From Chloroflexota bacterium (lineage in GTDB: Bacteria > Chloroflexota > Anaerolineae > JAAYEA01), in assembly GCA_019873665.1 (NCBI GenBank), contig JAIOAV010000003.1, positions 1,422 to 65,421 on the forward strand: 64,000 nucleotides of DNA, read 5' to 3'. The notes under the pieces are model-generated. The model had not been told where the DNA came from, did no database searches, and saw only the letters and a program-made list of their open reading frames with translations. Positions within the stretch are counted from its first letter, which is position 1. Each line of letters starts with the position of its first letter. Of this stretch, positions 15,020-55,633 are shown in pieces. A program made the position numbers and the translations under genes.

Positions 15020-15045
15020 CCTCCACTAAGCCAATGGTGTTCGTT

Positions 15046-15074
15046 ATATTACAGAGAATACGAGTAATAGTCAA
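15046..15074 (-). promoter_or_regulatory. Promoter of the UbiA-family gene
   Basis: On the minus strand there is a TTGACT -35 (15069-15074), a 17-base spacer and a TAATAT -10 (15046-15051). The predicted start point near 15039 gives a leader of about 20 bases. It is back to back with the tlyA promoter. Confidence 0.75.
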
Positions 15075-17361: not shown

Positions 17362-17427
17362 AGGCATTCCACACAGCCATCGCGACGAATACTGTTATCT
17401 GACGACCAGAAGGAAAGTTTTGGATTG

Positions 17428-19227
<1,800 letters not shown>

Positions 19228-19238: not shown

Positions 19239-19275
19239 GAGGCAGCAGTGTTATACCACTGCTGCCTCTTTTTTT
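19239..19275 (+). terminator. Rho-independent terminator of lepA
   Basis: A perfect 12-bp stem (GAGGCAGCAGTG and its complement) with a 6-base loop is followed by seven T residues. It is the textbook intrinsic terminator for the tlyA-perM-lepA unit. Confidence 0.93.
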
Positions 19276-19295: not shown

Positions 19296-19324
19296 TTGCC
19301 AGAAAAGGGCCAGTCTGGTAAAAT
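19296..19324 (+). promoter_or_regulatory. Promoter of the envelope glycosyltransferase cluster
   Basis: A TTGCCA -35 (19296-19301), a 17-base spacer and a TAAAAT -10 (19319-19324) match the sigma-70 consensus at five of six positions each. The predicted start near 19331 gives a leader of about 38 bases before the TTG start at 19369. Confidence 0.75.
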
Positions 19325-19368: not shown

Positions 19369-22300
19369 TTGACCGACGAAGGGACTGGAGACCTATTGCC
19401 GGCCACAAACCAGCAGAGCGCTTCCGACTCCCCGCCCGACGCAGTGCTGACGGGCGAAGCGGCTTATACACACAGCGTATTGGCGTTTTGGCAGCGCCAT
19501 GCTTTCACAGTTGTGCTACTGGCCGTACTGGCCCTGGCCCTTGGGCTCCGACTCTATCACGTCAACTGGGACGAGAATCAGCATGCCCACCCGGACGAGC
19601 GCTGGATCTCGATGGTCGCCACCGACCTACACTGGCCAGAGCATCTCTCCGATGTGCTGAATCCGCGCACCTCGCCGCTGAACCCGCTCTGGAACGCCGC
19701 AAGCAATCAGCCGCGCAGTTTTGCCTACGGCCATCTCCCTTTGTACGCGCTCACATTACTCGCCAACATCCTGGAGCGGGCCGCCATGCTGGCACCGCAT
19801 CTCCGCTTCTGGCCCGGCCTATCAGATGCAGTCGCCGGCCTGGCGAACGCCGGAGGCTATGACGAGATCGCGCTGCTGGGGCGCGTCGTCTCCGCCCTGG
19901 CGGATTTCGGCGTCATTGTGCTGATCTACGCCATAGGGCGCAGACTGCATGGTCGCGCTGTCGGATTGCTGGCGGTGGCTTTCGTGGCGCTGACGGTGAG
20001 CCATATCCAGGCATCCCACTTTTACACCTTCGATACGTTCGCCACCTTTTTCGTCGTGCTGGCTGTTTACGGCTCGTTGGGCATCTGGCAGACGGGACGT
20101 CAGCGTGATATTGCGCTCGCGGGCATCGCCGCGGGGATGGCGGTCGCCTCCAAGTTCAGCGCGCTGCCGGTGCTGGCCGCGCCCACCGTGGCTATCTTGG
20201 CGCATGCCCTGGCGCTGCAAGAACCAACCACAGAGCAGGTGCAGGACGAGCATATCCGGCGCGGCTGGCGGCTGCGCTGGCAGAGCGGCCGGCGAGTCGC
20301 GTTGCAGCAAGGGCTGCTCTGCCTGGGCATCGCGCTGGTCACCTTTGCCATCACTTCCCCATTCGCCATCCTGGATTACCGCCGCTTTATCCTTCAAATC
20401 GCTGAGCAGGGCGCGATGGTGCGCGGCATCGCCGATCTTCCCTACACGCGGCAGTACCGTAACACCCCCGCCTACTGGTACCAGATTGAGCAGCAATTGC
20501 GCTGGGGCATGGGATGGCCGCTCGGCCTGACCGCTTTTGTCGGGTTCGGGTGGTATGTGCTGCGCAACTTCCGCCGCCCGCGCTGGGGCGAGATGGTGCT
20601 CCTCGCCTGGGCTGTTCCCTACTTTGCCATCACCGGCAGCTTTATGGTCAAATTCATGCGCTACATGCTGCCGCTGCTCCCCTTTTTCTCGTTGATGGGT
20701 GCGGCGCTCCTCTGGGAGTGGCGGCAACGCGCACAGCACATCCAGCCGATCGGCAGATGGCGACTGCGTTCGGCATGGCTTGTCAATGTCTTGATCGCGG
20801 TCATCTTGCTGGTAACACTGGCCTACGCGCTCGCCTTTGTCAGCATCTACGTGCGCACCCACACCTGGATCGCCGCGTCCCGCTGGATTTATGAGAACGT
20901 GTCGCCGGGCGCGACCATCGCGGTTGAGCATTGGGATGACAGCCTGCCCAAGTCGCTGAGCCCGACGCTCAGCCAGGCCAACTATGGCTATCGCCACCTC
21001 GAGCTGCCGATGTACGAGCCGGACACGTACACCAAGTTCAGCCATGTCTATGAAGTCCTGCAACAGGCGGATTACATCATCCTGGCGACAAATCGGCTGT
21101 ACCGCTCTATCCCGCGCCTGCCCGAACGCTACCCCATCTCCAGCGAGTATTATCGTCTTTTGTTCGCAGAGCAACTCGGTTTCGCAAAGGTGGCGACGTT
21201 CACCTCTTACCCCCGCCTCGATGGCTGGGTGATCGTGGATGATGCCGCGGATGAGAGCTTCACCGTTTATGATCATCCCAAGCCCATTATCTTTCGCAAG
21301 GAGCGCGAGCTAAGCAGAGCCGAGTTCGACGCGCTCTTTGCCGAGGCATACCGTATCCAGCCGCAGGTGGAAAGCCGCGTCGCGGCTTCGCGGCCCGATC
21401 AGGTCAAGAAGGATTTGCTGCTGGACCAGCCGGTGGGCACGCTGCCGGTGGTGCGCGGCATCGGCTGGAATGCGCTCGCCAGTAACCATACCATCGTGGC
21501 AGTGGTTCTCTGGTGGCTAATCATCCAAGCGCTTGGAATACTCGCGCTGCCGATAACGTATGTTGTCTTCCACCGCCTGCAGGATCGTGGTTACCTGCTG
21601 GCCAAGACGCTTGGCTGGCTGCTGGTCGGCTTGGGTGTCTGGTGGCTGGCCAGCCTGCGCTGGTTGATGAATGCATGGCCCACCATCTTGCTCTGCGCGG
21701 CGCTATTGGGCGCTGTCTCTTGGGCGATCTGGCGGCAGCGGCGTCGCGAGATGGCAAGCTGGCTCCGGCAACAGTGGCAGTTCCTGCTCTGGAGCGAGGC
21801 GATCTTTGCGCTTGCCTACCTAGCCTTTGTCATCATCCGCATCCTGAATCCGGATCTCTGGCAGCCGTGGTATGGCGGAGAGAAGATGATGGAGATTGCA
21901 TTCCTGAATGCTATCCTGCGTAGCCCCTATTTCCCGCCCTACGACCCCTATTACGCCGGGGGATACATCAACTACTACTACTACGGGCAATATCTCGTCT
22001 CGCTGCTGATCAAGCTCAGCGGGGTGATCCCCTCTGTCGGCTTTAACCTGGTGATCCCTACGCTCTTTGCCCTGACGGTGGGCAATGCTTGGAGCGTGGG
22101 CTATAGCCTAGCCCATAGCGATCGCGTTCGCAAGGTGGCCGGCCTGGGCGCGGCCATCTTGATCGCACTGATCGGCAACCTGACGGCGATGACGCAGCTC
22201 GTCGGCGGCTTGTTGCAGGCGGGCGCCCGCCTGATACAGGGAAAGCCGCTGCCGCTGGTGAGCCCGCTTCAGCAGTTCGCCCTTGGCATCTGGGGTGTGC

Positions 22301-23922
22301 TCACTGGCCAAGCCACGCGGCCCGAGTTCGACTATTGGAATGCCTCGACACGCATCATTGACTATACCATCAACGAGTTCCCCTTCTTCAGCTTTCTCTT
22401 TGCGGACCTCCATCCGCATATGATCGACATCCCGTTCACGCTGCTGGCGCTGGGCTTGGCGCTGAACCTGGTGCTGAGCGGCAAGCCGCGCCCGACAGCG
22501 CCGCCAGAGGGGATTGGCGCGCGCGTCCTGCGCTTTGCGCTGCTGCCGGTAGTGCTGGGTGCATTGGGCGCGATCAACACATGGGACTTGCCTACGTACC
22601 TCGGCGTGGTCACCATCGCTTTCGTGCTGCAGGGCTATCAGAAGGATGGACGTATCCATCTGGCCTCTGCAGCGGCCCACGCCATCGTGGTTGGTGTGCT
22701 CAGCTTGCTCCTGTATTGGCCCTTCCATAGCCACTACCAGGCAATCGCGGTGGGTCTGGCGCTGGTAGAAGAACGCTCCGGCTTGCCACAAGTCCTGGCG
22801 ATATGGGGGCTGTTCTGCTTCCTCACTATCACCTATCTGCTGAGGGAACTGCGGGTAGATCGAAGCCGATCGGCGCTGGTCCGCTACTGGCGCGTCACGC
22901 TCAGGCATGCCGCCTATCTTCCGCATCTGCTGGACCTGCAGGGTGCGTTGGTGCAACAGCACACCCCGCTGTATGCATTGGGCCGGGTGACCCTGTGGGG
23001 GATGCTGCTTGTCACTGGCACGCTGATCATCCTGAAGCAGCCCACGTTGGCATTTTTCTTGCCGCTCCTGGTGCTGGCTGCGGTATTGCTGGGGCGCGAT
23101 CGCGCCACGCCGGAGGAGCAGATGACGCACCTGCTCATCTGGGCCGGCCTGCTCGTCCTCCTGGGGGTGGAGATCGTGTTCCTGAAGGATTTCCTGGCGG
23201 GCAGCCCCTGGAAACGGATGAACACGCTCTTCAAGTTCTACATCCAGGTGTGGATACTGCTCGGCTTGGCGCTGGGCGCAGCGTTGCCGCGTCTTTGGAC
23301 ATGGGTGCAGAACTGGCGCCGGTCTGGCTGGCGCGCGGCCTGGCAAGCTGCATTCATCTTTCTGCTCGGCAGCAGCCTCCTTTATCCTTTGCTCGCGATA
23401 CCGGCGCGGGTGCAACAGCGGTTTCCCAATGGCTCACCACCGATCGGCACGCTGGACGGGATGGCCTATATGATGGTGGGTGTCTACAACTGGCCGGATG
23501 AGGCGAATCGCATCGAGTTAGTGTATGACTATGAGGCGATCCGCTGGCTCTGGGATAATGTCGAGGGAACGCCAGTCATCGCCGAGGCGCGGCTGGACTA
23601 TTACCGTGAGGGCGGGATGCGCGTCTCCTCCTTTACCGGGTTGCCCACGCTCCTCGGCGCGCATCAGGGGGAACAGCGTTACGATTGGCAAGTAGGGCCA
23701 CGTGATGGCCTGGCGAGGGAGCTGTATGATTCGACTGACCTGGCGCGCAAGCGACAGATCATCGCCGAGCTGCAGGTCGCTTACATCTACGTAGGGCAGC
23801 TGGAGCGCATCCGCCACAATCCGCCTGGCCTGGCCGCTTTTGAGGCGATGATGCAGGAAGGGTGGCTGAGCATCGCCTACGAGAATGAAGGGGTTCGCAT
23901 CTACCGCACTTTCGTTGATTAG
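19369..23922 (+). CDS. Giant GT39-like glycosyltransferase fused to DUF2298 membrane domain
   Basis: The 1517-residue polytopic membrane protein is a fusion. Residues 40 to about 700 resemble a GT-C (GT39/ArnT-like) transferase: a helix, then the extracytoplasmic acidic motif NWDENQHAHPDERW around residues 66-79, a conserved GRVVSALADFGVIVLIYAIG helix pair, further helices and a soluble region (about 490-700). From about residue 714 (WWLIIQALGILALPI) to the end it is a complete DUF2298 protein with INEFPFFSFLFADLHPHM and WKRMNTLFKFYIQVW. The start is a TTG with a G-rich purine tract upstream. Lipid-linked sugar transfer outside the membrane is inferred; the substrate is unknown. Confidence 0.9.
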   Translation: MTDEGTGDLLPATNQQSASDSPPDAVLTGEAAYTHSVLAFWQRHAFTVVLLAVLALALGLRLYHVNWDENQHAHPDERWISMVATDLHWPEHLSDVLNPRTSPLNPLWNAASNQPRSFAYGHLPLYALTLLANILERAAMLAPHLRFWPGLSDAVAGLANAGGYDEIALLGRVVSALADFGVIVLIYAIGRRLHGRAVGLLAVAFVALTVSHIQASHFYTFDTFATFFVVLAVYGSLGIWQTGRQRDIALAGIAAGMAVASKFSALPVLAAPTVAILAHALALQEPTTEQVQDEHIRRGWRLRWQSGRRVALQQGLLCLGIALVTFAITSPFAILDYRRFILQIAEQGAMVRGIADLPYTRQYRNTPAYWYQIEQQLRWGMGWPLGLTAFVGFGWYVLRNFRRPRWGEMVLLAWAVPYFAITGSFMVKFMRYMLPLLPFFSLMGAALLWEWRQRAQHIQPIGRWRLRSAWLVNVLIAVILLVTLAYALAFVSIYVRTHTWIAASRWIYENVSPGATIAVEHWDDSLPKSLSPTLSQANYGYRHLELPMYEPDTYTKFSHVYEVLQQADYIILATNRLYRSIPRLPERYPISSEYYRLLFAEQLGFAKVATFTSYPRLDGWVIVDDAADESFTVYDHPKPIIFRKERELSRAEFDALFAEAYRIQPQVESRVAASRPDQVKKDLLLDQPVGTLPVVRGIGWNALASNHTIVAVVLWWLIIQALGILALPITYVVFHRLQDRGYLLAKTLGWLLVGLGVWWLASLRWLMNAWPTILLCAALLGAVSWAIWRQRRREMASWLRQQWQFLLWSEAIFALAYLAFVIIRILNPDLWQPWYGGEKMMEIAFLNAILRSPYFPPYDPYYAGGYINYYYYGQYLVSLLIKLSGVIPSVGFNLVIPTLFALTVGNAWSVGYSLAHSDRVRKVAGLGAAILIALIGNLTAMTQLVGGLLQAGARLIQGKPLPLVSPLQQFALGIWGVLTGQATRPEFDYWNASTRIIDYTINEFPFFSFLFADLHPHMIDIPFTLLALGLALNLVLSGKPRPTAPPEGIGARVLRFALLPVVLGALGAINTWDLPTYLGVVTIAFVLQGYQKDGRIHLASAAAHAIVVGVLSLLLYWPFHSHYQAIAVGLALVEERSGLPQVLAIWGLFCFLTITYLLRELRVDRSRSALVRYWRVTLRHAAYLPHLLDLQGALVQQHTPLYALGRVTLWGMLLVTGTLIILKQPTLAFFLPLLVLAAVLLGRDRATPEEQMTHLLIWAGLLVLLGVEIVFLKDFLAGSPWKRMNTLFKFYIQVWILLGLALGAALPRLWTWVQNWRRSGWRAAWQAAFIFLLGSSLLYPLLAIPARVQQRFPNGSPPIGTLDGMAYMMVGVYNWPDEANRIELVYDYEAIRWLWDNVEGTPVIAEARLDYYREGGMRVSSFTGLPTLLGAHQGEQRYDWQVGPRDGLARELYDSTDLARKRQIIAELQVAYIYVGQLERIRHNPPGLAAFEAMMQEGWLSIAYENEGVRIYRTFVD

Positions 23923-23993
23923 GATATGAAGCAAATCGCATTGTTGACCGTATATCTAGAGAACAGGGATTGTTCTTTCCTCCGGGAGGCACG

Positions 23994-26606
23994 ATGCAAA
24001 TCCTGGTCTGGTGGCTGATCATCGAAGCCCTGGGGTTGGTGGCGTTGCCGATCGCCTTGCGGTTGTTCCGCTTTCTGCCGGATCGCGGCTACGCCTTTGC
24101 CAAGCCCCTGGGGCTGCTGTTGACAAGTTACATTGTCTGGCTGCTCGTCTCGTTCGGCATCCTGCGCAACGAGGTGGTAACTATCCTGTTCGTTGCGGCG
24201 CTGATCGGCGCCTATTCCTGGTCGCTCTTCCGGCGCGATGCCGTAGACCTCCGATCGTTTCTCCGGCGCGAGAGAGGGGTCATTGTGACCACCGAGATCC
24301 TATTTACGGTGGCCTTTCTCCTGTGGACCTTCTTCCGCGCCTATAATCCGGCGCTGGATGCCACCGAGCGCCCCATGGACTTGGCATTCCTGAACGCCAT
24401 CGTGCGCAGCGAGACCTTTCCGCCGAATGACCCGTGGCTGTCTGGTTTCGCGCTGAGCTACTACTATTTCGGCTATCTGATGATGGCGACGATGACCAAG
24501 CTCTCCGGCCTGCCCGGCGCGGTGGCGTTCAACCTCTCCATCGCGCTCCTCTTTGCGCTGACAGCCACCGGCACTTTCAGCCTAGTCTATAACCTGGTGC
24601 GACGGGCGCAACAGGCCCAGCGCGACACAGCGGAAAGCGACGGAGGTGTTGCGCCCGTGCTCTCTGGCATGTTGGGCGCGCTTTTCACCGTTGTGATCGG
24701 CAACTTGCACGGCTTTTTCGATGCGCTGCGGGCACGGGGTCTCGGCTCGGCGGCGCTATGGGAATGGCTCGACCTGAAGAAGATCGCCAACGCGCCGGTA
24801 ACCGGGCGCTGGTTTCCCACCGATCCACCTGATCCATGGTGGTGGTGGCGCGCCTCGCGTGTCATTCACGACCGGGACCTCCTGGGGCGGGATAGCGAAG
24901 TCATTGACGAGTTCCCCTTCTTCAGCTTCTTGCTGGGCGACATGCACCCGCACGTGCTGGGGCTGCCCTTTGTGCTGCTGGCGATGGGACTGGCGCTTAA
25001 CGTTCTCTTTGGCTTTGCGGCTCGCACCGCTGCAGCGGATGATGAGGCTGTGCTGGACGGCACAGAGGAGGCGCAACCATCGCAGATCGAACGCCTTTTC
25101 GCGCGCGCGATCAACCTCTTTCGCGCCCACACCTTTGATCTACTGCTCTGGGCTCTGTGCCTGGGTGCGCTCTCGTTCCTGAACACGTGGGATTTCCCCA
25201 TCTATCTGGTCATCTTTGTGGCAGCGCTCTTCCTGCGCTACTATCTGCTACACGGGGAGCATGACTGGGCCGAGCCGGTGCTCCTGGCGGGATGGGTGGC
25301 AGTGCCGGGGGTCTTGCTCTATCTCCCCTTCTATATCGGCTTTCGCTCCCAGGCGGGAGGGATTTTGCCGGTCCTATATAATGTAACGCGCCTGCCGCAA
25401 TACCTGATCATGTTTGGCCTCTTCATCTTCTGTTTGCTGAGCTGGATCGTCGTGCAGTGGCGCGACCTGTTCGCTCTGCGTGATCGGGATGGTGAACGGT
25501 GGCTGTCGCCGCGCCAAGCGTTTGGTCAAGGGCTGAAGGTGGCGGCAGGTATCCTGGCGTTGCCGCTGGCTGCGTTGGCTCTGTCGGTTCTGCTGGTTGT
25601 CGGCACTTCGCGCGGGCGTGCCTTCTTGCAGGATCTGCTGGCGACGCCGGAAGCACAGGCGGCTGTCGGCGGACAGAGCATCGGCGCGCTCTTACAGCGC
25701 TTTGTCCTGATGCGGCTGACCAACCCGTGGCTCGTGCTGCTTCTGGTGAGCATGATCGCCACCCTGGTTGCCGCCATCTGGTATCGCGCGCGCGCCATAC
25801 GGGATGGGATCATCAGTGCAGATGAGAGCGCCATGGACTCCGGCCGCAGCCCAGGTCAGGCGCCGCACGGCGTGTCGGAGGGCGCGCTCTTTGCGGCGCT
25901 CATCGCCACGACTGGGCTGCTGCTCACGCTCGCCACCGAATTCGTCTATCTACGCGACTTTTTCGGGACGCGCATGAACACCATCTTCAAGTTCTGGTAC
26001 CAGGCATGGGTGCAGATGGCCGTGGCTTCCGCGTTTGGCGTCTGGTACATGCTGCGTGGCCGAAAACGGTGGGGCCTGTATCTATGGCTGGTCGCTTTAC
26101 TCCTCCTGTTAGGTGCCAGCATGATTTACCCGATCGCTGCCAGTTACTCGAAGGCGCAGCAGTTTCGGGTACAGCCAACGCTCGACGGCATCGCCTACCT
26201 GCGAGAGCGACGGCCAGGGGACTATGCGGCCATCCGTTGGCTACAGGAGAACGTCGTCGGTGCCCCGTATATCCTCGAAGCGCCGGGCGGCTCCTATACC
26301 GAGTACGCACGTGTCTCGGCAGCTACGGGTCTACCAACAGTGCTCGGGTGGGATTTCCACGAGCAGCAGTGGCGCGGCACCTACGAAGAGCCGGGGAAAC
26401 GTCTTCCTGACATCGAGCAGATCTACAAGAGCCTTGACACCAACCTGGTGTTGCAGCTCCTGGACAAGTATAAAATACAATACGTATATGTGGGCGATCT
26501 AGAGCGCTACAAATACAATCTACAGCCAGCGATGGTGGACAAGTTCGGGCGCATTATGACCCTCGTGTATGATCAGGGTGGCGTGCGCATCTACCAGCGT
26601 CGTTAG
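23994..26606 (+). CDS. DUF2298 domain membrane protein
   Basis: The 870-residue polytopic protein aligns by eye with the C-terminal half of its upstream neighbour. Both start LVWWLIIEALG-like, both carry an EFPFFSFL-x2-D-x-HPH motif and an RMNT-[IL]-FKF segment, and both end in a YVG-[DQ]-LER segment and GVRIY. DUF2298 proteins are uncharacterised predicted glycosyltransferase-like membrane proteins common in Chloroflexota and archaea. GGGAGG at 23984-23989 supports the ATG at 23994. The 71-base gap and lack of a terminator suggest cotranscription with the gene before it. Confidence 0.9.
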   Translation: MQILVWWLIIEALGLVALPIALRLFRFLPDRGYAFAKPLGLLLTSYIVWLLVSFGILRNEVVTILFVAALIGAYSWSLFRRDAVDLRSFLRRERGVIVTTEILFTVAFLLWTFFRAYNPALDATERPMDLAFLNAIVRSETFPPNDPWLSGFALSYYYFGYLMMATMTKLSGLPGAVAFNLSIALLFALTATGTFSLVYNLVRRAQQAQRDTAESDGGVAPVLSGMLGALFTVVIGNLHGFFDALRARGLGSAALWEWLDLKKIANAPVTGRWFPTDPPDPWWWWRASRVIHDRDLLGRDSEVIDEFPFFSFLLGDMHPHVLGLPFVLLAMGLALNVLFGFAARTAAADDEAVLDGTEEAQPSQIERLFARAINLFRAHTFDLLLWALCLGALSFLNTWDFPIYLVIFVAALFLRYYLLHGEHDWAEPVLLAGWVAVPGVLLYLPFYIGFRSQAGGILPVLYNVTRLPQYLIMFGLFIFCLLSWIVVQWRDLFALRDRDGERWLSPRQAFGQGLKVAAGILALPLAALALSVLLVVGTSRGRAFLQDLLATPEAQAAVGGQSIGALLQRFVLMRLTNPWLVLLLVSMIATLVAAIWYRARAIRDGIISADESAMDSGRSPGQAPHGVSEGALFAALIATTGLLLTLATEFVYLRDFFGTRMNTIFKFWYQAWVQMAVASAFGVWYMLRGRKRWGLYLWLVALLLLLGASMIYPIAASYSKAQQFRVQPTLDGIAYLRERRPGDYAAIRWLQENVVGAPYILEAPGGSYTEYARVSAATGLPTVLGWDFHEQQWRGTYEEPGKRLPDIEQIYKSLDTNLVLQLLDKYKIQYVYVGDLERYKYNLQPAMVDKFGRIMTLVYDQGGVRIYQRR

Positions 26607-26684
26607 GAATCAGGGACCCGGTAGGGACGGCTGCCATCAGCATAGCGCGGTCGCCCGACGGGGACAGAGGATGGGGCGAAGGAT

Positions 26685-28433
26685 ATGATTCAAGTCGAGA
26701 GATACCGCGAGCAAGAAGGCGAGATGGATCGGCTGTTGATCAGCGTCGAGGCCGGGCTCTACATAGTGGCTATCGTCGTGGCCTTGATGCTACGCTTTGC
26801 CAATCTAGGCTACTGGCCGCTCCTCTCTGCTGAAGTTACAGAGGCATGGCCCGCATGGAGCTTCTTGCATGGAGGCCGGCTGGAGAGCTTCAATTACAGT
26901 CCATTGCTCTTTGGCGTCAATCTCTTTAACTTTATGGCATTTGGGGCCAGCGATGCCATGGCGCGCCTCTTGCCAGCGCTGGCAGGGACGGTGATCGTCA
27001 TTCTGCCCTACCTGCTGCGAGACAGGCTGGGACGCTGCGGCGCGATTGCCGCTTCCCTCCTGCTGGCGCTATCTCCCTCCTTTGTTTATTTCTCTCGCAC
27101 CGTCAGCGGCACCGTATTGGTCGCGGCCAGCGTGCTGATATTCCTCGTGGCAGCGCACCGCTATGTCACGACGAGACAGAAGGGCCATATCTACCTCGGC
27201 GGGATCGCTTTGGCGCTGGGGCTGATGTCCGCTGCCACGATCTATACGGTGCTTGTCGCCGGGTTGATCTTTGGCGGCTACCTGTGGCTGAGAAACCGTC
27301 GTCATCTTGGTGACGTCGAGTTACAGCAACTTCAGGTTGCCTGGCAGGATTTGAAAGCGGGCAAAGAGTGGCGAGCCGCTCTGGGCCTGGGGGTGGCGCT
27401 GATCGTCCTGATCTCGACGGTGTTGTTATGGCATTGGAGCGGCTTGCAGGCCACGCTGAACCTACTCGGGCGCTGGCTGCACAACTTGACAACCCCGGAC
27501 GGAATCACGCGCTGGTCTTACTACCTGCGCGCCTTGCTCGTTTATGAGACGTTGCCGCTGTTCGTTGGCCTGGCCGGGATCGTGTTAGCGCTGCGGCGGG
27601 GCGCATTCCTGGGCATATTCGCCACGATCTGGTTTATTGTGGCGTTGGTGCTCGGTTCTGTCGCCGGCACCCGGCCCGCGGAGCTGATGCCGATCATCGT
27701 ATTACCGTTGATCCTCCTGGCCGCGCAGGCGGCTGATGCGTTGATCAGCACCACGCCGTGGGTCGAGATCGACAGCGCCAACGTGCTGTTCGTCATCATC
27801 TTCGTGGTGCTCTCCTCGTTCATCTATCTGCAGCTAACCGCCTTCACCGTACAGGGAGAAACCGCCTATCTGCGCCTCGCTGTGGTCTCCATCGGCATCC
27901 TGCTGCTGTCCTTTGCCATCTTCTGGTATTGGGCTGGCACAGCGCAGGCGTTGCCCATCGCTGCGGCAACGCTGCTCGCCATCCTCCTGGCGACTACAAT
28001 TCATTCCACAATGGAACTGAACGCGTACAACGCGCGGGATCCGCGAGAGCTGCTCGCGCAACAAGCGGTTTCTATTGATCTGCGCCATTTGCGTCCCTTT
28101 CTGATTGACCTTTCAGAGCGGACGTCAGAGCGTGAACGTATGCCGATCATGATCGAAAGGGCTCTCCATCCTCTCCTGTCCTGGTACACGCGCGATTTTG
28201 GCCCCGTGCGCCTGGTCAACGCCGTGCCACCTGCGCCGCAAGAGCGGGTGGTCATCACGCTGGCACAGGGCGCGGCTGAAGGGCCGGCCGGATTCGTGGG
28301 GCAACGCTTTCGCGTATGGACAACGGTCGAGACCGCTCACCTCGGCTGGGGAGATTGGCTCAAATGGTATCTACACCGATTCAAGATAGGGACGGAGACC
28401 AGTCAGCAGATCGAGGTGTGGTTCCGGCCATAG
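26685..28433 (+). CDS. GT39-like polytopic membrane protein
   Basis: The 582-residue protein has about ten or more hydrophobic helices and a C-terminal soluble region from about residue 460. The layout resembles GT-C transferases of the PMT/ArnT class (LLPALAGTVIVILPYLLRDRLG is the typical helix-loop-helix). The usual first-loop acidic pair, normally DE-A, reads SAEVTEAW here, so the catalytic Asp is replaced or shifted. GAAGG at 26676-26680 supports the ATG at 26685; an in-frame ATG 13 codons later is possible. It may be a divergent or inactive transferase. Confidence 0.75.
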   Translation: MIQVERYREQEGEMDRLLISVEAGLYIVAIVVALMLRFANLGYWPLLSAEVTEAWPAWSFLHGGRLESFNYSPLLFGVNLFNFMAFGASDAMARLLPALAGTVIVILPYLLRDRLGRCGAIAASLLLALSPSFVYFSRTVSGTVLVAASVLIFLVAAHRYVTTRQKGHIYLGGIALALGLMSAATIYTVLVAGLIFGGYLWLRNRRHLGDVELQQLQVAWQDLKAGKEWRAALGLGVALIVLISTVLLWHWSGLQATLNLLGRWLHNLTTPDGITRWSYYLRALLVYETLPLFVGLAGIVLALRRGAFLGIFATIWFIVALVLGSVAGTRPAELMPIIVLPLILLAAQAADALISTTPWVEIDSANVLFVIIFVVLSSFIYLQLTAFTVQGETAYLRLAVVSIGILLLSFAIFWYWAGTAQALPIAAATLLAILLATTIHSTMELNAYNARDPRELLAQQAVSIDLRHLRPFLIDLSERTSERERMPIMIERALHPLLSWYTRDFGPVRLVNAVPPAPQERVVITLAQGAAEGPAGFVGQRFRVWTTVETAHLGWGDWLKWYLHRFKIGTETSQQIEVWFRP

Positions 28434-28501
28434 CTGGCTCCAACTCAAACGTCCCGTATCTCCGGCAACCGCCATTTTTCACGATAGTGAGGTAACGACA
28501 C

Positions 28502-31500: not shown

Positions 31501-31567
31501 CCAAGGGAACATCTACGTCTCTGATTCCAGCAACCATCGCATCGTCAAATACGGTCCTATACAGTAA
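28502..31567 (+). CDS. Agl23-like (TIGR03663) membrane protein fused to a six-bladed NHL propeller
   Basis: The 1021-residue protein has an N-terminal GT-C-like membrane part (about residues 20-530) with RAYCHDESIHASWSWDLYTG in the first loop. This is the signature of the TIGR03663 'flippase activity-associated Agl23' family. A soluble linker follows, and from about residue 735 to the end there are six NHL blades (GVALDAQGNLYVVDSQNHRV, and similar). NHL propellers bind protein or glycan partners. The propeller would face outside the cell if the GT-C topology holds (inference). GTGAGG precedes the ATG. A hairpin follows the gene. Confidence 0.9.
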   Translation: MQKTQKGNLSILDRPILGGIRLDWWTLLYVGLIALAIFTRLWNLEWRAYCHDESIHASWSWDLYTGKGYRHNPTYHGPFGYHITAFMFFLFGDSDYTGRLAAGLFGVGTVILMLLMRRWLGRWGTLAATTLMIISPIMMHRTRYIRMDPWTILFAGIMFVAILHYLEKRRDIHLYIIAAMFALSLVSKETAFIYEAIFGTFLVILFVVRWWREGRFPWKSAEFDLILLIGTLSLPLISPLPLFLVYKLFHLGYRITDYSNQGIIRSLATFIPFLGISIAIGYWWGRRRWLIAAGIFYLIMISFFTTMFTNGQGFASGMFGSLGYWLEQQEVKRGGQPWYYYFLLVPMYEFLPLLFGLLGIGYWARGALRALREHSRARATEKKGAIAAVPEKAPFVSFVVYWTAMSLVIYSWAGEKMPWLAQNIVLPLIPLAGWFIGQVMEKIDLREFTERRGWLMVVLIPLFILVLVTALRARPFQGTSLDQLGETMRWLLSVMMAVGLAVAFYSIGRRLRASGIWQALFFTTLIVMMALTFRFAWMASFTTGDLASEMMVYAQGTPDVPLVMQEITEMSLRLTGGLDLKVAYDDESSWPFVWYLRNFRNAQYYAKQPSAPFDAAVVIVGLANEPGVKPYLGNKYLRREYRLIWWPSETYKDLTFAKIIKGIGSAESRRNFWNVFFYRKYSYPLSQWPHVNRFAMYVRRDIATQLWDYGPEVVTEEIVLPGEEYEKKLRQVSPLQVWGSEGGGAGQFRYPKGVALDAQGNLYVVDSQNHRVVKLGPNGEHLLTIGGQGNAPGQFNEPWSVAVDAEGYIFVADTWNHRIQRFSPDGQFETMWGIFGDIGGIMPGDPNLFYGPRDIAIDDSGYLYVTDTGNKRVIAFDRDGKYINQWGGPGADNGRFLEPVGIARDGEGNFYVADTWNRRIQKFDKAFNYLAQWPIAGWEGESVVNKPYLAADAAGNVYATDPEMYRIIKFDTKGTVLAVWGQFGVDRNSLNLPTGIAVDGQGNIYVSDSSNHRIVKYGPIQ

Positions 31568-31590
31568 CGGTTCAGGTTTGAGCACGCGCT

Positions 31591-31633
31591 ACTGCGGTGG
31601 GAGGGTGTCAAAGGCATATCCTCCCGCCGCAGT
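31591..31633 (+). terminator. Hairpin terminator after the Agl23-NHL gene
   Basis: A 14-bp stem (ACTGCGGTGGGAGG opposite CCTCCCGCCGCAGT, one G-T pair) encloses a 15-base loop and is followed by the T-rich CTTGATTTTG. It divides the cluster into two transcription units. Confidence 0.7.
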
Positions 31634-31640
31634 CTTGATT

Positions 31641-31668
31641 TTGCGGGCGAGCGCATTTCTGCTAGAAT
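31641..31668 (+). promoter_or_regulatory. Promoter of the two GT39-PA14-NHL genes
   Basis: A TTGCGG -35 (31641-31646), a 16-base spacer and a TAGAAT -10 (31663-31668) follow directly after the upstream terminator. The -10 forms half of the palindrome TAGAA-TCG-TTCTA (31663-31675), which also spans the predicted start point. Confidence 0.55.
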
Positions 31669-31701
31669 CGTTCTACTGAGACACATAACAGCCGAGGAAA
31701 T

Positions 31702-34700
31702 ATGAGAGCGAGACGCAGGATCACCCATTTCATCCTAGCGCTTTTGGCAGTGGCGATCGGCTTCTATGCGCAGAGCTGCATCCGCAAACCAGATCAGTTG
31801 ACCGAGGCGTTGCTTTTATACGGTGTGGCGGCGATCCTGTTCGTTGTGGCTTTGCGGCGCACTCCCTCAGAGAGCGAGGGCGAGTATCCCGATACGCCGC
31901 CACCACCGCTGCCCGTGTCGCGCCGTTGGGGAGTCGTGGCGTTTCTGGTTGCTTCGTTGCTGGCGCTACTGTGGTCGCTGGTCCTCTTCAACAACGAGCG
32001 CCCTCCCGCCATCGCCTGGTTCTTTTACCTCTCCAGCGTCGGCACGTTCCTGGCCGCCTTCTGGCTTGCCGAGTCGCCGTTACGCCTGCCCCGTTGGGCG
32101 GAGATCGCGCCGCGCGTGCGACACATCAGGCTTGAGCAGATCATCCTGATCTTGCTGCTCGCGGCGAGCTTCTTCATCCGGGTCTATCGTGTCGATGAGC
32201 TGCCTCTAGGCGTGTGGTACGACGAGGCGGACAATGGCCTATGGGCCCGGCAGATGAATAGAGATCCCAGGTTCCAACCGATCTATGTGGGATCCGCCAA
32301 TCTCCCCTGGCATTATCTGTCGCTCATCGCTCTCTCTTTCCGCCTCTTTGGTGATGGCATCGTGGCGGTGCGTCTCGTCTCGGCAGTTTTCGGCATGCTG
32401 ACCGTCTGGGCGACCTATCTTTTGGTGCGCGACCTCTTTGGCCCGCGCATGGGTCTCGTCGGCGCATTCACCATGGCCGTCTCGCACTGGAATGTGAACT
32501 TCAGCCGCGTCGGCATGTACGGCATCACCGCGCCGTTCTTCATCCTGTTGGTGCCCTATCTGCTCAACAAGGGAATCCGCTCGCAGCGCCGTGTCCACTT
32601 TGCCTTAGCCGGCATAGCCCTCGGCCTGGGGATGTGCTTCTACATCTCGTACCTGCTCTTTGTGCCCGTGATCGGTTTCCTGTTGCTCCACACCATACTC
32701 AGCCGGCGACACTTTCTCCGCCACTATATCTCGCATCTGGTCATCTTTGCCATCGCTGTCATCGTAGCGGTAGCGCCTATTGCGTTTTTCGCTGTGCGTT
32801 ATCCCAACATCTTTTTCAACCGCACGCGTACCACCTCGATCTTCAAGGACAAGACACGCGAACAGGCGATCAGCGCGCTAAAGGAAAGCGCAACCAAGCA
32901 TCTGCTGATGTTCAACTACCGCGGCGATGGTAACGGGCGGCATAATCTGCCCGGCGAGCCCCAACTTGATCTCGTCACGTCGGTGTTTTTTGTGTTGGGC
33001 ATCGTCTATAGCCTCTACCGCCTTCGCGATCCCCGCTATGCGGCATTGGTCGTCGGCCTGCTGGTCATGCTGAGCGGCGGCATCTTTTCGCTCGATTTCG
33101 AGGCCCCGCAATCGCTGCGGGCTATCGGCACGCTGCCCATCTCGCACCTACTCGCCTTTGTGGCCATGGCGCGGCTGTGGCGCGAGTTCGACATCACCTT
33201 TGGCCCGCGACGTGCCGGCTATGCGTGGGTAGCCGTCTTACCCATGCTCGCCTATATCGGCTACACAAACCTCAACATCTACTTTGTCAAGCAAGCGAAC
33301 GACTTTGCTGTCTGGAACGCCTACTCGACGGCAGAGACCTTTACCGCGCGGCGCATGAAAGAGATGGGCAGCGGCTACGACTATCACGTCATCTCGCTCT
33401 ACTTCCAGACGCCGACGCTGCGTTTCCTGGCCCCCGAGATCACCTCGTACAAGCGGCTGGAGACCACCGACTCGATGCCGATCTATGACACCACCGACAA
33501 GGATACGGTGCTCTTTATTGATCCGGAACGGCGGACGCTCTATGAGGACGTGCGGCGTTTCTACCCATCGGGCAAGTTCGAGGAGATCACCCCGCCCTTT
33601 GGTGGACCAGTGATCCTCTATATCGCGCAGCTCACACCGGCGCAGATTCGCGGCATCCAGGGTCTGGCCGCTACCTACTATGGCAACGAAATATGGGATG
33701 GGCAGCCCGCACTCCAGCGCAAGGATGATCAGGTGTCATTCGATTGGAGTCAGCAATTGCCGGTCTCGTTGCCCTTTAGCGTCGAGTGGCAGGGCACGCT
33801 GCGCGTGCCGCGCTATGGCAGTTATCGCCTCGGGCTGCGCGCGCCGGCGCTGGTAGAGCTCTATATCGACGAGACCCTCGTGCTGGACAAGGCGGGTGAG
33901 ATCAAGATGCCACTGGCAGAGGGAAACCATGCGTTGCGTCTCAGAGCGGTGGGTGCGGCGGGCACGATGGACTTTTATTGGCAACCGCCCGGCACGGCGC
34001 CACAGATCGTGCCGATGAGCGCGCTATACCTGAATCCACCGGTAACCAACAACGGCCTGCTCGGCCGCTATTTCCCGAACGCGAACTGGCAAGGCGAGCC
34101 CGCTCTGATGAAGATTGATCCCTCGCTGGGACTATACTTTCATATCACGCTTCTCTCCCGCCCATACACTGTCGAGTGGACCGGCAAGCTGAACGCGCCC
34201 ACCGCCGGCACATATGCCTTTGGTCTGGAATCCATTGATGACTCGTGGCTGTATATCAATGACAAGCTAGTGGTCGAGGCGCATGTCGGCAATCAGTACC
34301 AGCAAGGGCAGATCACTTTGCAGGCAGGTTTGCACGACATCCGTGTGCGCTATACGGACAAGAGCAACTGGTCACACATCAACCTCTTCTGGACGCCACC
34401 CGGCAAGCCGCGAGAGATCATCCCAGCGACCTATCTGCTGCCACCACAGGGAAGCTACCCCGAGATGGTGGAAGCGGCCAAGCCGACCCAGACAGCGCCT
34501 GTCGAGCATGGCGAGGTGGAACTGACCCTGCTTGCAACATGGGGAGGGCAGGGAAGCGGCGAGGGACAGTTCAAAGAGCCGCGGGACATCGCGGTGGACG
34601 ACCAGGGCCGTGTCTATATTGCCGACACCGGTAACAAGCGAGTGCAAGTGCTGGATGCCGAGGGCAGGTTCCTCGCCCAATGGACGAAGGGCGATCAACC

Positions 34701-35334
34701 TTTTGTGGAGCCTTTGGCGCTGGTGGTGAACTCGGCGGGAGAGATCCTCGTGCTCGACTCCGAACCGACGTGGGTCTATCGCTTTACGGCAGAGGGGGGA
34801 TACCTCGGCAAGTTCGCTGGGCCATCGGCACAGCTATACCATCCGCGCGGCATGGCCATTGACGCGCAGGATCAAGTGTATGTAGCAGATACCGGCGGCG
34901 GACGCTTTGTAGTGTTCGATGCCAGCGGCAATCGGGTCGCCACATATGGCACGATGGGAAGGGATGCCGGGCAATTCACGGAACCGACAGACCTCGTGGT
35001 GACCGAGAGCGGCGACATCTTTGCCGTTGACAATTCGAACTACCGTATCCAGCACCTGGATGTCTTTAGCCGCTACCTGGGGGAATGGGCAATCCCTGTC
35101 GCCAATGCGTACAATGGTCCACATATCGAGCTCGCGCCAGATGGCAGCCTGCTGGTCACCGCGCCAGAGGCGGGCCTGATCCAACGTTTTGCCGTTGACG
35201 GCACATTGCTGGGGCAGTGGGGCGAAGGGTTGATGCGGATTCCGGTGAATTTGGTGCGAAAGGGCGACAGGCTCTATGTAACTGATACCCTGAACCACCG
35301 CATTCAGGTGTTCCAGGTGCAAAGCAGCCGCTAG
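31702..35334 (+). CDS. GT39-like glycosyltransferase with two PA14 domains and an NHL propeller
   Basis: The 1210-residue protein has an N-terminal GT-C membrane part (about residues 1-500) with ELPLGVWYDEADNGLWARQM, where the Asp-Glu pair is the expected catalytic loop. A soluble segment follows, then PA14 domain 1 (about 653-775) and PA14 domain 2 (about 783-915, with TYAFGLESIDDSWLYINDKL), and six NHL blades from about 941 to the end. PA14 folds bind carbohydrates in adhesins and glycosidases. The transferase would thus carry its own extracellular glycan-binding modules (inference). The domain order matches the next gene exactly. Confidence 0.88.
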   Translation: MRARRRITHFILALLAVAIGFYAQSCIRKPDQLTEALLLYGVAAILFVVALRRTPSESEGEYPDTPPPPLPVSRRWGVVAFLVASLLALLWSLVLFNNERPPAIAWFFYLSSVGTFLAAFWLAESPLRLPRWAEIAPRVRHIRLEQIILILLLAASFFIRVYRVDELPLGVWYDEADNGLWARQMNRDPRFQPIYVGSANLPWHYLSLIALSFRLFGDGIVAVRLVSAVFGMLTVWATYLLVRDLFGPRMGLVGAFTMAVSHWNVNFSRVGMYGITAPFFILLVPYLLNKGIRSQRRVHFALAGIALGLGMCFYISYLLFVPVIGFLLLHTILSRRHFLRHYISHLVIFAIAVIVAVAPIAFFAVRYPNIFFNRTRTTSIFKDKTREQAISALKESATKHLLMFNYRGDGNGRHNLPGEPQLDLVTSVFFVLGIVYSLYRLRDPRYAALVVGLLVMLSGGIFSLDFEAPQSLRAIGTLPISHLLAFVAMARLWREFDITFGPRRAGYAWVAVLPMLAYIGYTNLNIYFVKQANDFAVWNAYSTAETFTARRMKEMGSGYDYHVISLYFQTPTLRFLAPEITSYKRLETTDSMPIYDTTDKDTVLFIDPERRTLYEDVRRFYPSGKFEEITPPFGGPVILYIAQLTPAQIRGIQGLAATYYGNEIWDGQPALQRKDDQVSFDWSQQLPVSLPFSVEWQGTLRVPRYGSYRLGLRAPALVELYIDETLVLDKAGEIKMPLAEGNHALRLRAVGAAGTMDFYWQPPGTAPQIVPMSALYLNPPVTNNGLLGRYFPNANWQGEPALMKIDPSLGLYFHITLLSRPYTVEWTGKLNAPTAGTYAFGLESIDDSWLYINDKLVVEAHVGNQYQQGQITLQAGLHDIRVRYTDKSNWSHINLFWTPPGKPREIIPATYLLPPQGSYPEMVEAAKPTQTAPVEHGEVELTLLATWGGQGSGEGQFKEPRDIAVDDQGRVYIADTGNKRVQVLDAEGRFLAQWTKGDQPFVEPLALVVNSAGEILVLDSEPTWVYRFTAEGGYLGKFAGPSAQLYHPRGMAIDAQDQVYVADTGGGRFVVFDASGNRVATYGTMGRDAGQFTEPTDLVVTESGDIFAVDNSNYRIQHLDVFSRYLGEWAIPVANAYNGPHIELAPDGSLLVTAPEAGLIQRFAVDGTLLGQWGEGLMRIPVNLVRKGDRLYVTDTLNHRIQVFQVQSSR

Positions 35335-35347
35335 TCGCGGAGGGCAC

Positions 35348-38300
35348 GTGTCCGAGATCGAACGGCCGCAGACAGAAGGGCCCAGAACGATGTCCGCGGG
35401 ACTTGGTCCGCAAGCTGTCATGGCCTCTCTGCTTCTGGGCTTTCTGGCGCAAGGCCTGCTTTTCCTGGCCCGGCAGTCAGAAGCTGCCAAGCGCTTTGGC
35501 TGGATCACTGCCCTTGGTCCCTGGTTGGCCCTCCTTCTCTATGCCGCTTCCTCTCTCCTGATAGCTATTGGCGCACGGCGGGAACATGTCGCAGAGGAGG
35601 AGAGCGCGGCAAGTGCGGATGTTCCGCTGCGCCCTCTGGATCTAGCTGCCCCGCTATCTGCTATCCTCGCCGCCGGCGCTGCCATCACACTGTTCCGTGG
35701 TGATACACCGCGCGCGCCAGTCTGGGGGCTGGCGGCGTTGAGCCTGGCGGCGATCGTATGGAGTTGCGCGCGGTTACACCGACAATCATCGCTATGCCAA
35801 GAACGCGCTCACGCCACAGTCGCCGCATGGGAAGTCATTGGCATGCTCCTCATCCTGCTGCTGGCCGCCGCCTGGCGCACCCACCTCCTGGATATCGTGC
35901 CGAGCGGCATCTTTTTCGACGAGGCCCGCAACGGACTGGATGCCATCGAGATCCTAGAGCGAAACACACACCCACTCTGGAGCGATAGCCTGAGCGGGCG
36001 GCCAACGCTGCATCTACACTTGCTCGCCGCCACCTTCCGCCTGTTGGGTGCGCGCGTCTTTAGCATGCGCCTGGTCTCGATCACCTTTGGCCTGCTAGCC
36101 ATCACCGCCCTCTACCTCCTGGCACGCTCCCTGTTCGGTGGCCGGGCGGCGCTGCTGGCTGCCTTCTTTCTGGCCGTCTCGCGCTATCATACGCACTATA
36201 GCCGCCTGGTCTTTGAGGCGGGGATGACCCCCTTCCTTCTGATCCTCGGCATCTATTGCATGTGGCGCGCTTTGCGCCAACGTCGCTGGCTGGATTACGT
36301 GTTGAGCGCAGCCCTGATCAGCGCCGGCCTCTACACCTATGTTTCCTTTCGGCTTTTGCCGCTCGTCGTCGGAGGGCTGGTCCTATACCGCCTTGTAGGC
36401 GAGCGCTGCTTTTTGCGTCGCCACCTGCCCGGCCTTCTGTTGTTCACAGCCGTTAGCGCCCTGCTGCTCATCCCGCTGGCGCGCTTTGCGCTGGACGAGC
36501 CGGCGCGTTTCTTTAGCCGCTACCATGAGGTGGCGCTCCTCAACGAGGTGCAACAAGCAGGGAGCATCCGGCCGGTCGTGAAGAACGCCGTCGGGTATCT
36601 GACGATGTTCAACTATCGCGGCGACGAGAACCGTGTGCTGAACCTGCCGGGCGAGCCGGGGCTGAGCTTTGTGGCGTCGGTTCTCTTTGTACTGGGCGTT
36701 GCGCTCAGCATCGCTCGCTGGCGGGATGCGCGCTATGCGCTGCCGCTGATCTGGCTCCTGGTCGCACTCCTGCCCGGTGCGCTCACCCACTCGATCGAGA
36801 CACCGCATAGCACGCGCGTCCTCGCCGCGCTACCTGCTGCCTGTCTGCTGGCGGGATTGGCATTGCACGAGATCTGGTGCACGCTGCGCGGCAGCGTCGC
36901 CAGCGCGCCGACGGCACGCTGGCGCACATGGGGCGCGGCTGCAGCCGTGGGACTGGCGTTGATCGTTACGGCAGTGGTGGACTATCGGGCGTACTTCGTG
37001 CGGCAGCGCGACAACCCGCATAACTACTATGGTTTCGAGCCGGGCGCCAACCGCGTCGGGCGACTCGTCGCGCAATGGCATGATGACTATGACATCATCG
37101 TCTCGCCTACCTATGCCTACGTCTATCCAGAGGATAGCATCGTCAGATTTGTCGCATGGAACGCCCGCGAAGACGGACGCGGCTATCAGGCCCTCGACTA
37201 TGTGCGCGACATCCCCTATCGCGAGGACACCGGGCGCGGTATCGCCTACATTCTGGAGCCGGGATGCCGCCTCCTGACCTCCTTACTGCATCAGTTCTAC
37301 CCACAAGGCGTTCTTGAGGAGCATCTAGACCCGTTTCGTGGCGTGCTCTTCCTGACCTTCCGGGTGAGCGCGGAGGATATACACGCAGCACGTGGCCTGC
37401 AGGGTAGCTTCTATCTCACCGATAGCGATACGACGCCGGCAGCTACCCGACGCGACTTCCAGGCCGAGCTTTCCTGGAATTCAGAGGCTGCGCCTCTCGC
37501 CCTGCCATATCGCGCCGAATGGCGTGGCTCGCTCTATATCCCCGCATATGCGCCCTACACCTTTGATGCCGAGACTTCCGGTGAAGTCGAGCTTTTGCTG
37601 GATGGGGAGGTGATTCCCTTTGGCCGAGAAACCTCCCTTCCCAAGGGGATGCATGATATCCAGATCATCTACCGGCCGGCGGCTGGCATGGATGCGCTGC
37701 AGATCTTTTGGCGAGCGCCGCATCTACCTCGCCAGGTAATCCCCGGCAACGCGCTTTGCCCTGTACCCGCGTCGCCGAGTGGCCTGGAAGGCATGTATTA
37801 CCGCAGCCTGGAGTGGGAGGGGCCGCCGGCATCGGTCCAGCTCGACCCACTGATTTTCCCCAATCACTTTATGCTTGAGGGCATCTTTAGCATCTCTTGG
37901 CGCGGCCAGCTTCACATCACCGAAGGCGGCACGTATCGCTTTGGCACCGAGTCAGACGATGGCTCGCTCTTGTTCATTGATGACACGCTCGTGGTGGACA
38001 ACAGCGGCATTCATGGCGCTCAGTATCGCGAGGGGGCCATCAACCTGGAGCCGGGATGGCACGATATCGTCATCAAGTATCAGCAAGACGGGGGTGGCAT
38101 GGCGCTTTCGGTCTTTTGGACGCCGCCCGGCGGGCAACGCGTGCGCCTGCCGGAATCAGCGCTACGCTATCCCATCGGCGACTGGGGCCAGGATGTGTCG
38201 TTAGCGCCGCTGCCAGCGCCCTCCGAGCAGGCAGCCGTGCCATTCACCCCCACGGGCACGCCATTGCAGAAGCCCGTCGCCCTTTCGCTGGGGGATCCCG

Positions 38301-39103
38301 TTGCCACATGGGGCAAAGAGGGGAGCGGCAAAGGAGAGTTCCGCGAACCGCGTGGCATCGCCGTGGGCGCAGACGGGCGGATCTATGTGGCGGATACGGG
38401 AAACAAGCGCGTGCAGGTGTTTGACAGCGATGGCCGCTACCTGGCCATGTGGCAGAAGGCCGACCAACCACTTGAGGTTCCCTGGGATATCGTCATCAAC
38501 TCGCGCGGAGAAATACTGGTGCTGGATATCGGCCCTTGCTGGATCTATCGTTTCGACGCCGCGGGCCGCTATCTCGGCAAATTCGCTGGCCCAGAAGCGC
38601 GCCTTTACGCTTCTCACGGGATGAGCATAGATCGTCAGGGGAATATCTATGTGGCAGACACCGGCGGCTTTCGCCTCGTTCGCTTCAGCGCCGACGGTGT
38701 GCTGGCAGCGGAATATGGCGGTAAGGGATCTGGGCCTGGCCAACTCCTGGAGCCTACCGATGTGGCTTTCGCGTCCAATGGCGACATGTTCGTCGTTGAC
38801 AACAGCAATCAGCGCATCCAGCGCTGGGGCGCCGACGGGACCTACATCGGGGAATGGCCCATCCCGGTCGCCAATGCCTATAATGGCCCGCACTTGGTGG
38901 CGGCGGGCGATGACACCCTGTTCGTTACCGTTCCCGAACGCCATCAGATCTGGCGATACACGGCGGGCGGGGAGGTGCTAGAAGAGTACGGCGGGCCGGA
39001 TCAGTTCCGCGTGCCGACGGACCTAGCACTATCCGGCGGCTTCCTCTATGTTGCCGACACACTGCGGCATCGCATTCACAAGCTGCCGATCCTCACACCA
39101 TAG
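35348..39103 (+). CDS. Paralogous GT39-like glycosyltransferase with two PA14 domains and an NHL propeller
   Basis: The 1251-residue paralogue of the preceding gene lies 13 bases downstream. The GT-C part has VPSGIFFDEARNGLDAIEIL with the Asp-Glu pair near residue 195. PA14 domain 1 spans about 682-800, PA14 domain 2 about 812-930 (TYRFGTESDDGSLLFIDDTL), and six NHL blades run from about 979 to the end. Shared exact words such as IPVANAYNGPH and VADTGNKRVQV show a tandem duplication. The start is a GTG with GCGGAGG at 35336-35342. The substrate and acceptor are unknown. Confidence 0.88.
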   Translation: MSEIERPQTEGPRTMSAGLGPQAVMASLLLGFLAQGLLFLARQSEAAKRFGWITALGPWLALLLYAASSLLIAIGARREHVAEEESAASADVPLRPLDLAAPLSAILAAGAAITLFRGDTPRAPVWGLAALSLAAIVWSCARLHRQSSLCQERAHATVAAWEVIGMLLILLLAAAWRTHLLDIVPSGIFFDEARNGLDAIEILERNTHPLWSDSLSGRPTLHLHLLAATFRLLGARVFSMRLVSITFGLLAITALYLLARSLFGGRAALLAAFFLAVSRYHTHYSRLVFEAGMTPFLLILGIYCMWRALRQRRWLDYVLSAALISAGLYTYVSFRLLPLVVGGLVLYRLVGERCFLRRHLPGLLLFTAVSALLLIPLARFALDEPARFFSRYHEVALLNEVQQAGSIRPVVKNAVGYLTMFNYRGDENRVLNLPGEPGLSFVASVLFVLGVALSIARWRDARYALPLIWLLVALLPGALTHSIETPHSTRVLAALPAACLLAGLALHEIWCTLRGSVASAPTARWRTWGAAAAVGLALIVTAVVDYRAYFVRQRDNPHNYYGFEPGANRVGRLVAQWHDDYDIIVSPTYAYVYPEDSIVRFVAWNAREDGRGYQALDYVRDIPYREDTGRGIAYILEPGCRLLTSLLHQFYPQGVLEEHLDPFRGVLFLTFRVSAEDIHAARGLQGSFYLTDSDTTPAATRRDFQAELSWNSEAAPLALPYRAEWRGSLYIPAYAPYTFDAETSGEVELLLDGEVIPFGRETSLPKGMHDIQIIYRPAAGMDALQIFWRAPHLPRQVIPGNALCPVPASPSGLEGMYYRSLEWEGPPASVQLDPLIFPNHFMLEGIFSISWRGQLHITEGGTYRFGTESDDGSLLFIDDTLVVDNSGIHGAQYREGAINLEPGWHDIVIKYQQDGGGMALSVFWTPPGGQRVRLPESALRYPIGDWGQDVSLAPLPAPSEQAAVPFTPTGTPLQKPVALSLGDPVATWGKEGSGKGEFREPRGIAVGADGRIYVADTGNKRVQVFDSDGRYLAMWQKADQPLEVPWDIVINSRGEILVLDIGPCWIYRFDAAGRYLGKFAGPEARLYASHGMSIDRQGNIYVADTGGFRLVRFSADGVLAAEYGGKGSGPGQLLEPTDVAFASNGDMFVVDNSNQRIQRWGADGTYIGEWPIPVANAYNGPHLVAAGDDTLFVTVPERHQIWRYTAGGEVLEEYGGPDQFRVPTDLALSGGFLYVADTLRHRIHKLPILTP

Positions 39104-39142
39104 CACACACGCCGATTACACTGTCCGGCCGCTCGCCACTGC

Positions 39143-48814: not shown

Positions 48815-48850
48815 GGACACACCTCCTTGCAAGGATGATCTCTTGGCGGC

Positions 48851-55600: not shown

Positions 55601-55633
55601 GCGAGGTGGCAACCTTCCTGCTGTTCCGACGGG

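Follow-up and report, generated by a model that had tools for sequence, protein, structure and literature searches.

What would six large membrane-protein genes, lying one behind another in a bacterium of the class Anaerolineae (Chloroflexota), build together? The window analysed here, 64,000 nucleotides of contig JAIOAV010000003.1 from assembly GCA_019873665.1, carries them as six consecutive open reading frames (ORFs) on the plus strand, separated by gaps of 13-134 bp and named here P1 to P6 (Table 1). A preliminary description of this stretch had listed six giant envelope proteins of about 580 to 1517 residues. The six genes and their domain content are as it described, but P3 is of ordinary size (582 amino acids, aa), and the genes fall into a core of four and an accessory part of two. 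Most likely, this is a real, conserved and poorly studied envelope-glycan cluster. With a probability of roughly 0.55, we read it as a machine of GT-C (glycosyltransferase fold class C) proteins for the assembly or transfer of envelope glycans on the outer side of the cytoplasmic membrane.

Domain scores from Pfam and NCBIfam were far above chance for all six proteins, except for P3, which lies just over its family cut-off. P1 combines PMT_2 with DUF2298/TIGR03662 (588 bits), and P2 is a DUF2298/TIGR03662 protein (552 bits). P3 and P4 match TIGR03663, the Agl23 family, with 131.3 and 273.3 bits, respectively (curated cut-off 126.25), and P4 additionally carries NHL in five stretches. P5 contains PMT_2, two PA14 and four NHL matches, and P6 contains PMT_2, PA14 and four NHL matches; only the second PA14 of P6 passes Pfam, and the first, divergent one was recovered by comparison with P5. 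As claimed before, NHL is thus found in three of the proteins and paired PA14 in two of them, and the GT-C nature of the cluster is borne out by these scans and by the DUF2298 model. With 34.9 and 29.4 bits against the TIGR03663 cut-off, P5 and P6 are not members of that family and, judged by their domain matches, are classed as generic PMT_2 GT-C proteins.

The DUF2298 module, present in P2 and in the C-terminal half of P1, is predicted to have a GT-C fold of the STT3/DPY19 type. A search with its sequence gave no match to any solved structure, and A1, A2 and the membrane part of P4 had no relatives in PDB sequence searches. An AlphaFold2 model of P2 was built from 30 sequences (predicted local distance difference test, pLDDT, 89; predicted template-modelling score, pTM, 0.93), and all nine of its Foldseek matches in the PDB at E<=1e-3 were GT-C enzymes (AglB, DPY19, STT3A and AftA; E = 2.9e-6 for AglB). 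STT3 and DPY19 have 13 helices in a 1-8-4 layout (PMC6801728). The P2 model has 16, of which the last 13 follow this layout without sequence homology and the first three are additional. As the helices were allotted to the two sides manually, with the model and charge as guides, this check depends in part on the GT-C hypothesis. A 99.8% profile match between DUF2298 and the N-termini of the P1-like fusion proteins was rejected as an overlap of cut-out segments, and a 42.5% match (C-terminal region) is suggestive at most.

The outer loops point the same way. GT-C enzymes carry an acidic motif in external loop 1 (EL1; DxD or DD, with E allowed), R and/or D/E in EL2, a basic residue or N/Q in EL3, with Asn/Gln being the STT3/DPY19 form, and a conserved R in EL6 (PMC6801728). 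The counterparts in DUF2298 are E133 (EL1), R297, D324 and H326 (EL2), N405 (EL3) and R668 (EL6), and the polar site composed of E133, DxHxH at 324-328, N405 and R668/K674 is predicted to be extracytoplasmic. The motif residues hardly vary among 110 DUF2298 proteins and 77 fusion halves; Pseudobutyrivibrio, a Firmicute, and the haloarchaeal Halarchaeum also keep them. E133, which is paired with D/E at 137 and so does not form a strict DxD, occurs in 110/110 DUF2298 proteins, in 74/77 fusion halves (the other three have gaps) and in both of these distant proteins. Residues of P2 conserved at 97% or more are found at 38 of 386 outside positions versus 1 of 114 inside. The metal of AglB is held by a D-x-H motif together with an acidic residue of EL1, and D324-x-H326 of DUF2298, which resembles that motif, would fit such a site by analogy.

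The nearest folds, AglB, STT3A and DPY19, all belong to protein glycosyltransferases, which would suit protein glycosylation in the narrow sense, with DUF2298 acting on S-layer or other exported proteins as an analogue of an oligosaccharyltransferase or of a C-/O-mannosyltransferase. The C-terminal domain of DUF2298 is similar to the globular domain of AglB in the Foldseek comparison, and Agl23 has a described role in archaeal N- and O-glycosylation (PMC11182771). However, AftA, a polysaccharide GT-C enzyme, is also among the fold matches, and on a Pseudobutyrivibrio plasmid DUF2298 is encoded inside an exopolysaccharide cluster together with an O-antigen-ligase-family gene; we regard this alternative as improbable.

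The second family of the core is represented by a pair. The profiles of P3 and P4 align over 100% of the membrane part. The P4 family keeps D52, E53, H56, R143, D148 (D or E), E189, E415 and K416, whereas in P3 the equivalents of D52, H56, D148, E189, E415 and K416 are lost in most or all sequences; that of H76 is also missing, and those of E53, P78, R99, R143 and R597 are kept. The DE and HGP-type residues conserved in P4 are therefore incomplete in P3. This loss of catalytic-type residues suggests that P3 is probably a degenerate, non-catalytic partner, and the initial view of all six proteins as transferases would then not extend to it.

The main rival reading also concerns this pair: the core would serve mainly translocation, with P3 and P4 flipping polyprenyl-linked sugars outward and the DUF2298 proteins using the flipped donors. 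The Haloarcula Agl23 rescues a yeast rft1 deletion, and the purified protein supported the translocation of lipid-linked Man5GlcNAc2 in liposomes (PMC11182771). Moreover, both P3 and P4 exceed the cut-off of a family named by NCBI after Agl23, and P3 retains the family fold despite the loss of transferase-type residues. However, the flippase evidence comes from one distant archaeal member, and the outer loops of P4 keep GT-C-type residues (D52/E53, R143/D148, E189 and E415/K416) that a pure flippase would not need. We consider a mainly translocating core unlikely, if less so than the narrow protein-glycosylation alternative; flipping and transfer would not exclude each other if DUF2298 uses donors that have been moved by Agl23.

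P1-P4 form a conserved and ancient core, met repeatedly in genomes across the phylum. Gene order was counted in 120 loci of relatives, cut out at about 20 kb. Relatives keep the order fusion, DUF2298, P3, P4: the fusion gene lies upstream of DUF2298 in 62/74 evaluable relatives, an Agl23-like P3 lies downstream of it in 81/93, and P4 follows farther downstream in 45/72, with NHL in 41 of these 45. The Anaerolineales locus, for instance that of Flexilinea (L111) or Ornatilinea (L151), consists of GT-C, fusion, DUF2298 and P3, and in the three genomes checked of one such family (L156, L170 and L172) an Agl23-NHL protein is encoded elsewhere in the genome. The simplest arrangement is DUF2298 beside an NHL-less Agl23 protein (L160, L161 and L163), and in L065 the fusion and DUF2298 are merged into a 2430-aa chain that carries GT-C plus two DUF2298 modules. 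Other large fusions were also seen: a 2498-aa giant in a genome outside the class of the window (L175), and an 1830-aa GT-C-DUF2298 protein at the second DUF2298 locus of one genome (L033, G000:C15:5001-25000), where the opposite strand encodes a 785-aa GT-C-PA14 protein at a distance of about 4.7 kb.

The two families of the core also share genomes, a point made before by the NCBIfam curators. TIGR03662 had matches in 41/41 genomes of a first set from the class of the window. Among 121 Chloroflexota genomes, TIGR03662 was found in 81 and TIGR03663 in 78: both in 78, DUF2298 alone in 3, Agl23 alone in none, and neither in 40. Only two of 14 control genomes, those of Haloferax volcanii and Methanosarcina acetivorans, exceeded the cut-off for both families. 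The DUF2298 and Agl23 families are therefore present in Archaea as well, the archaeal evidence being these two genomes together with a Halarchaeum plasmid gene whose sequence spans the origin of its record.

The AlphaFold2 model of P4 has 15 helices and its C-terminus outside, the inner loops are positively charged, and the conserved polar loop residues all lie outside. From these features we infer that the NHL propeller of P4 is extracytoplasmic, in agreement with the surface display proposed earlier, and the propellers of P5 and P6 would be placed likewise by analogy. The modelled propeller matches six-bladed NHL structures (target TM 0.91), and, with a pTM of 0.69 for the model, how it is oriented relative to the membrane part is uncertain. 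One of the structures matched is the extracellular domain of mycobacterial PknD, as if the cluster might encode a surface sensing complex in which NHL and PA14 capture external ligands and the membrane parts have a structural role. We rejected this reading as very improbable: the cluster proteins contain no signalling domain, the conserved residues are concentrated in catalytic-type outer loops, and the fusion-DUF2298-P3 core is also found at loci that have neither NHL nor PA14, as is Agl23 without NHL in the three simplest loci.

P5 and P6, in contrast to the core, are an accessory pair that is often encoded apart from it. P5-like proteins occur in 47/120 genomes of the class, many of them full-length including PA14 and NHL. 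Their genes often form tandem pairs (G001, G174 and G203) and frequently lie on a different contig from the core. PA14 genes were counted near the core in 4/40 loci, which understates linkage because of the length at which the loci were cut, so that 47/120 is the better measure of occurrence. Within the window, a terminator-like hairpin splits the genes into P1-P4 and P5-P6, although its U-rich tail is weaker than that of the terminator after lepA. Given this hairpin after the fourth gene and a PA14/NHL pair often unlinked to the core, a single six-gene operon was rejected. The expectation that the genes travel together was thus confirmed for the core and in part for the pair. The hairpin and the separate contigs would also suit two GT-C groups that are merely adjacent and not one functional unit. 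However, several families (L035, L043, L054, L066 and L091) have P5/P6-like genes immediately after the core, and NHL propellers are common to P4, P5 and P6; we find such a mere adjacency slightly less probable still than narrow protein glycosylation.

The genomic surroundings fit the envelope-glycan context suggested in the preliminary description: besides the Pseudobutyrivibrio exopolysaccharide cluster, LPG_synthase_TM and GT4 genes lie upstream of the locus in Anaerolineales. In the machine that we favour, the core would contribute two STT3/DPY19-like modules of the DUF2298 type (P2, and P1 in its C-terminal half), a second GT-C module with which P1 begins, and a pair of Agl23-family proteins, in which P4, with its conserved active-site-type residues, would associate with the degenerate P3 much as GT-C heterodimers do. 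From a predicted polyprenyl-(pyro)phosphate carrier, every active module would transfer a sugar or oligosaccharide to an extracytoplasmic acceptor, for which a growing polysaccharide, a lipid or a surface protein are candidates. The NHL propeller of P4 and the PA14 and NHL modules of P5 and P6 would hold the acceptor or the nascent glycan near the active sites from outside. More tentatively, and at less than even odds, DUF2298 may be an unrecognised STT3/DPY19-like GT-C class that forms with Agl23 a two-component system for translocation and transfer of lipid-linked sugars in Chloroflexota and Archaea, expanded in Anaerolineae by fusion, by duplication to an active/degenerate Agl23 pair, and by external NHL/PA14 domains.

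Several points weigh against a glycan-transferring machine. The activity reported for archaeal Agl23 is that of a flippase, not of a transferase (PMC11182771), and the literature searched held no biochemical study of any DUF2298 protein. Foldseek TM-scores for the DUF2298 model are low (0.18-0.39), so that the fold call rests on the match list, helix layout and motifs and not on a tight superposition, and profile-profile comparison gave nothing significant between DUF2298 and the other GT-C modules of the cluster. The topology of the cluster proteins was derived computationally. The co-occurrence of the two families (Fisher 7e-29) was evaluated by a test that ignores genome relatedness, and the source metagenome-assembled genome is 91.5% complete with 6% contamination.

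The families themselves were already known by name, including that of P3 and P4 as Agl23, a reported flippase. New here are the fold assignment of DUF2298, the degenerate P3, and the division into core and accessory genes. DUF2298 occurs in two thirds of the sampled Chloroflexota genomes and in Archaea, yet there is almost no literature on it. Its predicted GT-C fold, its specific conserved site and its near-obligate partner Agl23, for which one biochemical result exists, make both families testable, and Flexilinea flocculi and Ornatilinea apprima are cultured carriers. The cluster bears on how Chloroflexota construct their envelope and on glycosylation machinery common to bacteria and Archaea.

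The upstream neighbour of the cluster is lepA, with a ribosomal-protein/rpoA region farther upstream, and the terminator that closes lepA sets it apart from the cluster. As a promoter scan gave 4 promoter-like sites versus 6.6 in shuffles, the candidate promoter in Table 1 is proposed from its position. The genes downstream of P6 lie on the opposite strand and concern mostly amino-acid metabolism, which places the end of the cluster at P6. In eight of the loci examined (the window, L048, L088, L091, L107, L108, L120 and L146), lepA (window 17425-19227) is located upstream, within a few genes of the cluster. The cumulative GC skew has its maximum at about 38000-39200, where genes switch from the plus to the minus strand, and may reflect gene orientation or a replichore boundary. 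Elsewhere in the window, the minus strand encodes a 622-aa protein with an unusual pairing of CHAT peptidase and FGE-sulfatase domains (53744-55612), glycyl-tRNA synthetase alpha and beta subunits joined in a 997-aa ORF (48996-51989), and a 516-aa ORF with no Pfam match at E 0.01 (47339-48889), flanked by isocitrate/isopropylmalate dehydrogenase-type and glycyl-tRNA synthetase genes. At 14138-15067, long ORFs overlap on opposite strands (293 aa, minus; 271 aa, plus), the plus-strand one without a Pfam match.

Table 1. Positions of the cluster genes and of candidate transcription signals in the window.
Feature	Position	Strand	Evidence
Intrinsic terminator after lepA	19239..19268	+	perfect 12-bp stem, T7 tail, minimum free energy (MFE) z = -5.4
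Promoter-like TTGCCA-17-TG-TAAAAT (extended -10-like), upstream of gene 1	19296..19324	+	weak evidence
P1: N-terminal GT-C (PMT_2) and full DUF2298/TIGR03662 module, 1517 aa	19369..23922	+	Pfam/NCBIfam
P2: DUF2298/TIGR03662, predicted STT3/DPY19-like GT-C fold, 878 aa	23970..26606	+	
P3: TIGR03663 (Agl23) paralogue of P4, most GT-C catalytic-type residues gone, 582 aa	26685..28433	+	
P4: TIGR03663 (Agl23) GT-C, predicted extracytoplasmic C-terminal six-bladed NHL propeller, 1021 aa	28502..31567	+	
Terminator-like hairpin between P4 and P5, 18 pairs, short U-rich tail	31591..31633	+	MFE z = -5.1
P5 (accessory): GT-C (PMT_2/STT3-like), two PA14, NHL, 1210 aa	31702..35334	+	
P6 (accessory): GT-C, two PA14 (first divergent), NHL, 1251 aa	35348..39103	+	

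Among known systems, the closest relatives by family are Agl23/TIGR03663, the archaeal "flippase activity-associated protein" of Haloarcula hispanica, and TIGR03662 (Chlor_Arch_YYY)/PF10060 (DUF2298), a family without assigned function. P3 and P4 are above the cut-off of the former, which co-occurs with DUF2298, but P4 adds a C-terminal NHL propeller and its paralogue P3 is degenerate. The latter clearly includes P2 as well as the C-terminal half of P1, a protein that differs by its fusion to a second GT-C module. The STT3/AglB oligosaccharyltransferases and the DPY19 C-mannosyltransferase resemble DUF2298, as modelled, in the top fold matches, the 13-helix 1-8-4 layout (of its last 13 helices), the four outer-loop motifs and an outer C-terminal domain. 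In contrast to them, DUF2298 has no detectable sequence similarity, low TM-scores, three extra N-terminal helices, and DxHxH and YYY motifs of its own. Paralogous GT-C proteins pair in heterodimers of the POMT1/POMT2 type; P3 and P4 are likewise paralogous GT-C proteins and have adjacent genes, although P3 has lost most catalytic-type residues and the P3-P4 pairing is putative. Finally, EmbC, a mycobacterial arabinosyltransferase of the GT-C class, has a lectin-like, carbohydrate-binding C-terminal module that is extracytoplasmic (PMC3044687). Although its domains differ from those found here and glycan binding in the cluster is putative, EmbC offers a precedent for PA14 and NHL as modules that would hold the acceptor.

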